Positions 5,363 through 7,631 of a stretch of DNA of 64,000 nt are shown here, piece by piece; position 1 is the stretch's first letter, and every line of letters starts with the position of its first letter. A program made the translations under genes and the position numbers. The notes under the pieces are model-generated. The model was not told the origin of the DNA. It worked only from the letters and a program-made list of their open reading frames with translations, and did not search any database. The stretch comes from Jannaschia rubra. Lineage in GTDB: Bacteria > Pseudomonadota > Alphaproteobacteria > Rhodobacterales > Rhodobacteraceae. Where the stretch lies: positions 10,001 through 74,000 of the forward strand of contig NZ_CXPG01000014.1 in the NCBI RefSeq assembly GCF_001403735.1. The letters run 5' to 3'.

Positions 5363-5704
5363 TCAGCCGTAGACGCTTTCCTTGCCGAAGTGCTTGGTCA
5401 AAAGATAGTAGACGACGGCCCGATATTTGCTCCGCTCGGACCTGCCGTATTTGTCCATGACGGTATCGATCCCCTCGTCCAGCTTCGGGCCGTCGCTCAG
5501 GCCCAGCTTCTTGATGAGGAAATTGTTCTTCAACGTCTCCATCTCGCCGGGCTGGCTCGCCGCGACGGTCTCGCTGTCGGAATTGTAGATCGAGGGTCCG
5601 CAACCGATGGTCACCTTCCGTAGAAGGTCCATGTCCGGCTCCTCGCCGATCTTGCCGCGGATGGTACCCGCGTATTTTCCGATCAGTTCGTCGCGTTTGC
5701 TCAT
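5363..5704 (-). CDS. DUF2853 family protein
   Basis: This 113-residue acidic, cytoplasmic protein matches the small DUF2853 family found mainly in alphaproteobacteria and Bacteroidetes. The recognisable feature is the C-terminal half, with KKLGLSDGPKLDEGID and RSERSKYRAVVYYLLTKHFG; no catalytic motif is apparent and the family has no settled function. The frame stays open to 5920, but the start at 5704 (MSKRDELIGKY) is preceded by AAGGGA and gives the family's usual length. It stands alone between clpB and the PRC-barrel genes. Confidence 0.82.
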   Translation of the reverse strand: MSKRDELIGKYAGTIRGKIGEEPDMDLLRKVTIGCGPSIYNSDSETVAASQPGEMETLKNNFLIKKLGLSDGPKLDEGIDTVMDKYGRSERSKYRAVVYYLLTKHFGKESVYG

Positions 5705-5826
5705 CGTTCGGTCCCTTCTGTCATGATGCGGAGGCCGGGCCTCCGGGCGGCATGATCGCGCCCGCTTCTGCGAAAAGAAAGTGAAACCTCGGGTCCGTCC
5801 CGATGCCCGGATCGACGGCCCAATAG

Positions 5827-5849
5827 AAAAGGCCCCCGAAACGGGGGCC
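5827..5849 (-). terminator. intrinsic terminator after the repeat/PRC-barrel gene
   Basis: A perfect 8-bp stem (5831-5838 with 5842-5849) and a 3-base loop are followed on the minus strand by four U residues (5830-5827). It lies about 25 bases after the stop of the PRC-barrel gene. Confidence 0.85.
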
Positions 5850-5873
5850 CCTCCTGTCACGATGGCGGTCGGC

Positions 5874-6959
5874 TTACAGGTCGCCGACGAGCGTGTCTGT
5901 GGGGACAAGCTCACCCGCATTGCTGTCCCAGGCGGGCATGCCCTGCAGTTCGCTTTCGGTCATCGAATTCAGGACGACGACACCGTCGCGCACCTCGAGT
6001 TCGTCGAGCGGAATGGCGACGCTGTGCTTGCCGAGCCCGAGGAACCCGCCGACACCGACCACGGCCGCGACTTCGTCGCCCATCATGACGACCCCGTCGA
6101 TCTTGCCGAGGTTGTTGCCGGTCTCGCCCATGACGTCGACACCGTTCAGGTCACCAACGCGATATTCCGCGAACATGGCATAGCGGCTGTCCATGTCGGC
6201 ATCGACCGCGACGTTCGCATCGCCCGTCTCCTCGATCTGGACTTCGGCCTCGGCCTGTTCCACGGCCACGTCGGCACCTTCGGCTTCCTCGATGTTCACC
6301 ACCGGATCGGCCTCGGTCACGTTGACGTCGCCGCCACCTTCCTGTTCGATCTGGACGTCGGCATCGGCCTGCTCGACAGCCACTTCGGCGGCGTCGGCGC
6401 GGTTCACGCGGACTTCGGGCTCAGCCGAGGTCACGTTCACCTGCGGTTCGGCCTCCTCGATCGTGATGCGCGGCTCGGGGCGCACGAAACGAACGATCGG
6501 CTCGGGCTGATCGACGGAGATCTCGGGCTGGGAAGTCGACACGTTCACGTCGGGCTCAGGCATCCGTACGGTGACGACCGGCTCGGGGATGGTCACCAGG
6601 ACCTCGGGCTGCGCCTGCTCGATCGTGATGATCGGAGCCTGCTGCTCGACCGTCACGGTCGGTTCGGCCACGGTCACGGTGATCTCGGGCTCGGCCTGTT
6701 CGACCAGAACCTCCGGACGCGCCTGATCGACGGTCACGGTGGGGTCGGCGACGGTGACGTCGACGTCCGCGTCGGGCTGTTCGACGACGATCTGGCCGCC
6801 CATCGCACCCGTGGTCGCATCGGCGTCGATCGGATTGCCGTCCGCGTCCAGAACGATCTGGGCGTCATCGGTTGGGGTCGTGGCGTCCTGGGCGAACGCG
6901 CCAGTGGCGAGCAGTGCAGCGGTGGCGACACTGCCGAGAAGCAGCTTGTGCGTGGTCAT
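5874..6959 (-). CDS. exported PRC-barrel protein with a long nonapeptide repeat
   Basis: The 361-residue protein has a signal peptide (residues 1-24, ending ATGAFAQ), a low-complexity linker, a repeat region at about residues 62-252, and a C-terminal PRC-barrel (about 267-345) with VVGVGGFLGLGKHSVAIP. The repeat unit is nine residues of the type PEVTVEQAE; prolines at 73, 82, 91 and so on to 181 fall exactly nine apart, after which proline is replaced by Ala or Gly but the alternating valines and acids continue. Alternating small hydrophobic and charged residues suggest stacked beta strands, an inference. PRC-barrels are small protein-interaction domains. A tandem paralogue lies upstream. The start at 6959 has GGGAG and an EcfG-like promoter 37 bases upstream. 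Function unknown. Confidence 0.85.
   Translation of the reverse strand: MTTHKLLLGSVATAALLATGAFAQDATTPTDDAQIVLDADGNPIDADATTGAMGGQIVVEQPDADVDVTVADPTVTVDQARPEVLVEQAEPEITVTVAEPTVTVEQQAPIITIEQAQPEVLVTIPEPVVTVRMPEPDVNVSTSQPEISVDQPEPIVRFVRPEPRITIEEAEPQVNVTSAEPEVRVNRADAAEVAVEQADADVQIEQEGGGDVNVTEADPVVNIEEAEGADVAVEQAEAEVQIEETGDANVAVDADMDSRYAMFAEYRVGDLNGVDVMGETGNNLGKIDGVVMMGDEVAAVVGVGGFLGLGKHSVAIPLDELEVRDGVVVLNSMTESELQGMPAWDSNAGELVPTDTLVGDL
6204..6776 (-). repeat. coding nonapeptide repeat array
   Basis: About 20 copies of a degenerate 27-base unit encode nine-residue repeats within the PRC-barrel protein. Thirteen prolines (residues 73 to 181) are spaced by exactly nine residues. The DNA copies have diverged, so the periodicity is held at protein level rather than by recent duplication. 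Confidence 0.85.
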
Positions 6960-6995
6960 CGGAATCTCCCGGTTTTCTGTTTGCAGTGCCATCTC

Positions 6996-7020
6996 AACAA
7001 GTGACTCTGCGACAGGTTCC
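6996..7020 (-). promoter_or_regulatory. EcfG-like general stress promoter of the repeat/PRC-barrel gene
   Basis: On the minus strand GGAAC (7020-7016) is followed after 16 bases by TGTT (6999-6996). The alphaproteobacterial EcfG consensus is GGAAC, 16-17 bases, CGTT, so one -10 base differs. It sits 37 bases before the chosen start codon. Confidence 0.5.
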
Positions 7021-7091
7021 TTACGTTCCGCGATCGGCATGATCCGGCCGGTGGCCGAACGGGCGGGCCGGGTCGCCCCGGCCCGTCGCGC

Positions 7092-7631
7092 TCACTCCGT
7101 GGGCGCGGTGGCCGGGTCGGCCGCGGGGTCGGCGGGAACGGCCTCAGGGACAGGCTCCCCCGAGACGGTGACATCCATGGGAAGCTCCTCGCCCATGCCA
7201 TCGTACTCCGGCATCGCCTCCAGCGCCTCCCGGTCGAGGGCCTGCAGCAGCAGCATCCCCTCCGCCGGGGCCAGTTCGGTCAGCGGCACGGCGACCTTGT
7301 GCTCGCCCAGTCCCAGGAACCCGCCGACACCCAGGACCGCCATGATCGTACCGCCCGCGGACACGAGGCTTTCCACCTCGCCCACCGAATCCCCGGCATT
7401 CGTGGTGACGTTCTGGCCGATAACATCGGCGACCGGCATGTCGGCGAAGGCGCCCGGCGCGTCCGTAGCGGCGGGGTCGGCGGGGGCGACCTCGGGCGCC
7501 GCGGTTGCGGCTTCGGGCGCGGCCGCTTCCGGCGCGGCGGGGTCCGTTGTCGTGGCGTCCTGTGCAAAGGCCGGCGCCAGGGAACTCGCCAGCAACAGGG
7601 CGCTGGCGCTCAGGGAAACGCGTAGGGACAT
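7092..7631 (-). CDS. exported PRC-barrel domain protein
   Basis: A 179-residue protein with a signal peptide (about residues 1-23, ending APAFAQ), an Ala/Pro-rich linker (to about residue 60), a PRC-barrel domain with VLGVGGFLGLGEHKVAVP, and an acidic Ala/Pro-rich tail. The PRC core is nearly identical in its central motif to that of the neighbouring repeat protein, so the two are tandem paralogues; this copy lacks the nonapeptide array. It is probably periplasmic. The start at 7631 gives the signal peptide directly, although the frame is open further upstream. No enzymatic motif is visible and the role is unknown. Confidence 0.85.
   Translation of the reverse strand: MSLRVSLSASALLLASSLAPAFAQDATTTDPAAPEAAAPEAATAAPEVAPADPAATDAPGAFADMPVADVIGQNVTTNAGDSVGEVESLVSAGGTIMAVLGVGGFLGLGEHKVAVPLTELAPAEGMLLLQALDREALEAMPEYDGMGEELPMDVTVSGEPVPEAVPADPAADPATAPTE

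Follow-up and report, generated by a model that had tools for sequence, protein, structure and literature searches.

Gene organization and domain layout

The window, a stretch of 64,000 nt from Jannaschia rubra, carries on its minus strand a gene (5874–6959) for a presumably exported PRC-barrel protein of 361 amino acids, the central part of which is built up of nonapeptide repeats. The gene was delineated from the frame list and from homologues; the mechanical frame starts at position 7040, and the start codon was selected on the basis of the signal peptide and the homologous proteins. The putative signal peptide, read from the sequence, comprises residues 1–23 (MTTHKLLLGSVATAALLATGAFA; 6891–6959, minus strand) and is followed by QDA, the junction being GAFA/QDA, which supports the proposed export. 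After a linker of 31 residues, a strict array of 15 nonamers without any insertion or deletion extends over residues 55–189 (6393–6797, minus strand). It merges into a tail array (residues 190–255; 6195–6392, minus strand), in which the spacing of the strands alternates between 10 and 9 residues, and the protein is completed by a PRC-barrel domain (residues 265–335; 5955–6167, minus strand) recognized by Pfam PF05239 with 28.7 bits (cut-off 21.2, E 1.4e-6). The peptide MPEPDVNV (residues 133–140; 6540–6563, minus strand) lies inside the strict array. The original prediction of about 20 repeats between positions 6204 and 6776, corresponding to residues 62–252, agrees with the 15 strict nonamers plus 7 or 8 further strands in the tail.

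Behind the stop codon, a terminator-like hairpin with a 14-bp stem, a 3-nt loop and a T-rich 3' side is found (5825–5855, minus strand; z −3.07, with 2 of 200 shuffles folding equally well), which is absent from the list of a simple terminator scan. The opposite strand contains a frame of 407 amino acids (5781–7004, plus strand), but reading the repeat as an antisense artefact was rejected because the minus strand is the one that encodes signal peptide and PRC-barrel and shows the conservation. A second PRC-barrel protein (7092–7631, minus strand; 179 amino acids from ATG) is encoded just upstream in the same direction; it has a signal-like N-terminus and no nonamers, and shares 39% identity in its PRC part with residues 249–358 of the 361-residue protein. 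Downstream, a DUF2853 protein (5363–5710, minus strand; 144 bits) is encoded.

The nonapeptide unit

The array of the 361-residue protein follows the pattern P-x-V/I-x-V/I-x-Q-A/P-E. As originally claimed, the prolines from P73 to P181 (6417–6743, minus strand) are spaced by exactly nine residues, 13 in a row, which was reached in 0 of 2000 composition shuffles. The mean BLOSUM62 scores at lags of 9, 18, 27 and 36 residues are 9.3 to 12.2 standard deviations above those of 300 shuffles. In a wider set of 57 proteins (see below), 771 nonamers have P at position 1 (75%), V/I at positions 3 (97%) and 5 (93%), Q at 7 (55%), A/P at 8 (68%) and E at 9 (37%), whereby the search itself demanded a hydrophobic residue at 3 and at 5 and left the other positions free. 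The longest strict run amounts to 15 copies in 21, 11 in 12 and 12 in 11 of these proteins, and to 26 in two, 28 in one and 6 to 14 in ten; the 57 are not all independent, as paralogues were counted separately and several genomes contribute two or more.

For the tail, a persisting hydrophobic/charged alternation without proline had been described. The strands indeed persist, and the description can be refined insofar as their spacing is regular, alternately 10 and 9 residues. The 57-protein set contains 60 ten-mers ending with A-G/E-x and 46 nine-mers ending with Q-A-E/D, and the succession 10-9-10-9-10-9 is realized in 18 of the 57 proteins and in 0 of 1800 tail shuffles. This alternation suggests that the strands may act in pairs. 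A higher-order period within the strict array obeys no common rule across the sequences analysed, namely 12 close sequences and seven groups. The 12 close sequences gave a superperiod of three repeats (z 3.6), the highest value in 18 tests, which did not recur in any of the seven groups (z −1.5 to 1.3); among the latter, a superperiod of two repeats was detected for L024 (z 4.2) and L088 (z 3.0) and a similarity between neighbours for L089 (z 2.8), the remaining four reaching at most 1.9.

Selection acting on the protein

The claim that the DNA copies have diverged was substantiated. The 15 copies share a mean nucleotide identity of 0.51, pairs of codons for the same residue are identical in 0.50 of 336 cases, and Tandem Repeats Finder reported nothing at a score of at least 30 in the repeat DNA. 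Compared with four Jannaschia relatives, among which the strict array is free of indels, the dN/dS of the array ranges from 0.11 to 0.29. Resolved by position of the unit, pN is 0.000 at position 1, 0.03–0.09 at positions 3 and 5, 0.17–0.28 at positions 2, 4 and 6, and 0.04–0.13 at positions 7–9. Purifying selection, strongest at P1, V3 and V5 and acting also on the turn, therefore preserves the period, in line with the maintenance at the protein level postulated before. The dN/dS of the tail against the Jannaschia locus L009 (0.73) was not used because an indel puts this alignment out of register.

Occurrence and end modules

Six peptide patterns searched against named genomes yielded 14 further loci, which belong to Jannaschia (4), Tranquillimonas (3), Notoacmeibacter, Rhizobium, Pelagibacterium, Pseudorhizobium, Microvirga, Roseomonas and Hyphomicrobium. 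A lag of nine is among the top three lags in all 15 proteins, being weakest in L021 and L022, so that the homologues keep the period, as do the 57 proteins of the wider set. Within the genus, 12 of 20 genomes possess the array. The initial tallies are 24/295 for the family, 8/385 for the class and 8/398 for the phylum, which include genomes dropped later as well as that of J. rubra itself; leaving out the dropped genomes they become 22/295, 5/385 and 7/398, respectively. Genuine arrays outside the class are present in four genomes of the phylum (L095, L096, L098 and L099). The patchy occurrence (12/20 in the genus, 24/295 in the family) implies that the protein is dispensable. Five copies reside on plasmids of Paracoccus (4) and Pelagibacterium (1) and are annotated just as “PRC-barrel domain-containing protein”.

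The 57 proteins remained from 63 unique frames after removal of L028 and L033 (both G390), L029 (G300), L030 (G357), L085 (G503) and L086 (G512), judged by eye to be PPVTVSLPS-like and probably antisense frames, or short chains; L086 was discarded on chain length alone. L100 (G721) and L107 were dropped as well. The 63-member set considered below consists of the 57 and six further proteins; L027 and L080 are truncated at contig ends. The long PPVTVSLPS repeat frames of L028 and L033 also show a period of nine and are probably antisense to another repetitive gene. L100, judged by eye, resembles CheA and has a linker in which APVVEVQAP-type repeats follow each other at a period near nine. A phage origin was discarded, as both the 361-residue protein and the L089 array are without match in phages; in viral contigs, a single seven-residue pattern matched five stretches, none of which was confirmed.

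In the 63-member set, Pfam matches at E 0.001 comprise PRC (54), DUF6470 (44), DUF4097 (5), OmpA (2) and EF-hand_1 (2), and in another domain scan no PRC match was obtained for L074, L083 and L084. L088 (397–2370) and L089 (835–2628) contain 26 uninterrupted nonamers and then, at the place where the 361-residue protein has its PRC-barrel, a domain of the OmpA family, which scores 44.8 bits in L088 and 49.7 bits in L089. The Asp of the GYTD motif in OmpA-like domains serves peptidoglycan binding; aligned OmpA-like members read GYTD, whereas L088 and L089 both read GYAS. L024 has EF-hands ahead of its repeats, and L095 contains two adjacent genes, of which one ends in a PRC-like part and the other has an EF-hand-like segment and lacks a PRC motif (by eye). 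A helical-looking segment with two cysteines is visible by eye between signal peptide and repeats in L017, L018, L025, L054, L074, L077, L083 and L088.

Predicted structures

The C-terminal domain is confidently predicted to adopt the PRC-barrel fold. AlphaFold2 with 15 sequences gave pLDDT values of 84–92 per ten-residue block over residues 261–340, with one block at 73, and in a Foldseek search of this model against the PDB the top match and the only one below 0.001 was 3htr, a PRC-barrel protein of solved structure (E 2.8e-4). Together with the Pfam assignment, this corroborates the domain named originally. In the context of the whole protein, block means over residues 51–250 are 31–45, and the first repeats show strands nine residues apart at low confidence. 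The repeat alone, modelled with nine sequences, reached 50–68 over the first 50 residues and 28–59 beyond; Foldseek returned two matches in the PDB for this model (E 5.9 and 6.9, with a match probability of 0.01) and thus no credible solved relative. The stiff rod or solenoid proposed before is therefore plausible but unproven: strands predicted at low confidence follow the period in the first repeats, the low values would fit disorder as well, and the shape is left without a solved counterpart. A PDB sequence search yielded tobamovirus-type capsid matches (6 of 7 rows, best E 2.9e-5, residues 119–211), which were judged to be composition matches and rejected.

Relationship to known repeats and families

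Among known families, the array resembles DUF6470 (PF20074), the first ca. 50 columns of which match the oriented nonamer in 44 of the 63 proteins at E 0.001 or better. The matches mostly occupy profile columns 1–60 (columns 3–51 in the 361-residue protein), and the best one amounts to 51.4 bits (L089). After a column-preserving shuffle of the L089 array the score was 61.7 bits, after reversal 13.2 bits, and a full shuffle produced no match; the array of the 361-residue protein scored 30.3 bits in its native form and 34.0 after column shuffling, and lost the match upon reversal and full shuffling. The DUF6470 profile recognizes the oriented nonamer itself. The curated cut-off of 28.9 bits is exceeded by this array alone, not by the whole protein (26.4), and by L017, L018, L088, L089, L024, L031 and L034. 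However, the nonamer array covers only about 50 of the 178 columns of DUF6470. Among 14 control genomes, a match was found in Bacillus subtilis only, in a protein which we take to be the yviE product. In the source excerpt on this gene, yviE adjoins flgL.

The toastrack family DUF4097 (PF13349) matches residues 60–254 with 24.4 bits (cut-off 22.9) and the array alone with 26.1 bits. As 19.8 bits survive column shuffling, this match partly reflects the V-x-V pattern; reversal and full shuffling abolish it. Just 5 of the 63 members match at E 0.001, L013 and L016 fall below the cut-off, and Foldseek gave no credible match of any kind in the PDB for the low-confidence repeat model. The C-terminal domain is akin in sequence and predicted fold to other PRC-barrel proteins such as the RimM C-domain, reaction centre subunit H and CdpB, from which the 361-residue protein differs by its apparent signal peptide. 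To our knowledge, these three are devoid of a nonamer array.

In the titles and abstract beginnings listed by searches of open-licence papers, no description of the repeat was seen, the one paper listed on a nine-residue periplasmic repeat dealing with RTX, and neither a paper on DUF6470 nor one on a nonapeptide repeat combined with a PRC-barrel was found. The earlier remark that no named nonapeptide beta repeat of this composition was known has to be corrected insofar as the first ca. 50 columns of DUF6470 match the oriented motif.

A putative general stress promoter

Upstream of the gene, an EcfG-like promoter site GGAAC-N16-TGTT is located at 6996–7020 (minus strand), its first base being 61 nt before the start codon. 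Read as GGAAC-N17-GTT, it falls into the range of the EcfG motif given for Sphingomonas melonis in the source excerpt (GGAAC-N17-20-GTT). The pattern GGAAC-N15-17-NGT[TC] recurs in 8 of the 15 upstream regions, compared with a mean of 0.33 and a maximum of 3 in 1000 shuffled sets and with 10 of 128 upstream regions of mechanical ORFs; among these eight sites, those of L013–L015 carry GTC and that of L021 lies at −128. The stricter form ending with [CT]GTT is present in 4 of 15 regions (shuffles 0.066, controls 5/128). GGAAC alone is present in all regions except those of L017, L020 and L022, namely 12 of the 15 (3.4 in shuffles, at most 8; controls 30/128). With 6/15, GTTCC, the antisense control, likewise exceeds its shuffles (2.7; controls 31/128). 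Moreover, GGAAC-N15-17-YGTT occurs four times in the whole window compared with 1.52 expected, and 5 of 100 shuffles contain as many. The case for a promoter therefore rests on recurrence and position, because the pattern is not rare across the window. The sequence CACTGCAAAC (6979–6988, minus strand), which lies downstream of the promoter-like site and ahead of the start codon, is common to the window gene and three of the four Jannaschia relatives (upstream of L009, L011 and L012).

The genome encodes NepR (54.6 bits), next to which lie an EcfG-like and a PhyR-like frame; these two were named by eye from their sequences rather than by a profile. The PhyR-like frame is preceded by GGAAC-N16-GGTT, in which the distance between GGAAC and GTT equals that of the site at 6996–7020. 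PRC-barrel genes are among the EcfG targets in S. melonis (excerpt of PMC6599016) and among the RpoE2 targets in Sinorhizobium meliloti (excerpt of PMC6180224). The nonapeptide-repeat PRC-barrel gene is probably a general-stress gene.

Discussion

Based on these data, we tentatively favour, at somewhat less than even confidence, a general-stress envelope protein in which the beta-strand repeat presents the PRC domain, acting as a spacer or scaffold of defined length. In this scenario, EcfG would transcribe the gene under stress as a single-gene unit, and the protein would leave the cytoplasm by way of its signal peptide. Its nonamers might then line up as short beta strands (x-V-x-V-x) in a ladder, with P/A-x-P turns between them and with V3 and V5 being buried. 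This ladder could be either a rod resembling a solenoid, each coil of which comprises two strands, or a sheet which becomes ordered only upon assembly or partner binding; the two-repeat superperiod in L024 and L088 speaks for this scenario, and the three-repeat superperiod of the 12 close sequences does not fit a two-strand coil. The PRC-barrel at the C-terminus, presumably an interaction domain, would thereby be kept at a defined distance from the partners of the N-terminus or of the array. The data show the sequence architecture, the register under purifying selection, the confidently predicted PRC fold, the exchange of end domains between relatives, the promoter-like site and the regulator genes of the genome, whereas the EcfG induction, the periplasmic location, the strand ladder, the spacer function and the role of the PRC-barrel as an adaptor are inferred.

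The array might alternatively be an intrinsically disordered, extended spacer with a loose x-V-x-V-x preference and no fold of its own, comparable to the proline-rich region of TonB or the PEVK segment of titin, which are disordered extended spacers. We consider this rather unlikely, although the pLDDT values of the repeat are mostly below 50 and residues 55–255 are rich in E, A, P, Q and D with a net charge of −41. A disordered spacer would not be expected to retain a strict array free of indels in the Jannaschia relatives, nor nearly invariant P1, V3 and V5 beside variable positions 2, 4 and 6; two regular types of tail unit and copy numbers clustering at 11, 12 and 15 are likewise unexpected for it.

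A wider interpretation, quite doubtful at present, regards the nonamer as a stand-alone, calcium-independent envelope repeat with a new beta architecture including two types of tail strand. It would act as a fixed-length ruler of 11, 12, 15 or 26 units joining exchangeable ends (PRC-barrel, OmpA-like, EF-hand or two-cysteine helical segment) and also be present in DUF6470 proteins from Bacillota.

The low confidence of the monomer models would also be compatible with a multivalent binding ladder, in which each nonamer, as a short linear motif, adds a strand to a partner and becomes ordered only in the complex, MPEPDVNV being the strongest site. This peptide is invariant across the alignment of the 361-residue protein and the 14 loci, but its invariance is partly due to ascertainment because MPEPDVNV itself was one of the six search patterns by which the other 14 members were found; among the proteins found by profile it is missing in L024 and L034 and altered in L025. 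Furthermore, no neighbouring gene, as judged from mechanical frames, is common to more than three of the 15 loci. Such a binding ladder appears improbable.

The nine-residue tandem unit is shared with the RTX beta-roll, one coil of which holds two nonamers and in which one-residue insertions have been described (excerpt of PMC6891781). However, a calcium-binding RTX-like roll was rejected on sequence grounds and its likelihood is close to nil, as GGxGxD is absent from the 361-residue protein, no RTX family turned up in Pfam at E values up to 1, the turns hold P, A, E and Q instead of the calcium-binding glycine/aspartate, and the unit has two hydrophobic positions (3 and 5) compared with one in RTX.

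Returning to the favoured spacer or scaffold, the preservation of the nine-residue spacing in the relatives suggests that selection maintains the repeat as a structural module, perhaps as an envelope spacer induced by stress. Exported PRC-barrel proteins carry a real and selected nonapeptide module which is apparently without a name so far. The persistence of the period across otherwise diverged proteins, the clustered copy numbers and the exchangeable ends point to a structural module. Solving the structure would reveal if strands punctuated by proline are able to stack as a rod in the absence of glycine or calcium turns, and would provide a handle on the role of the exported general-stress PRC-barrel proteins.
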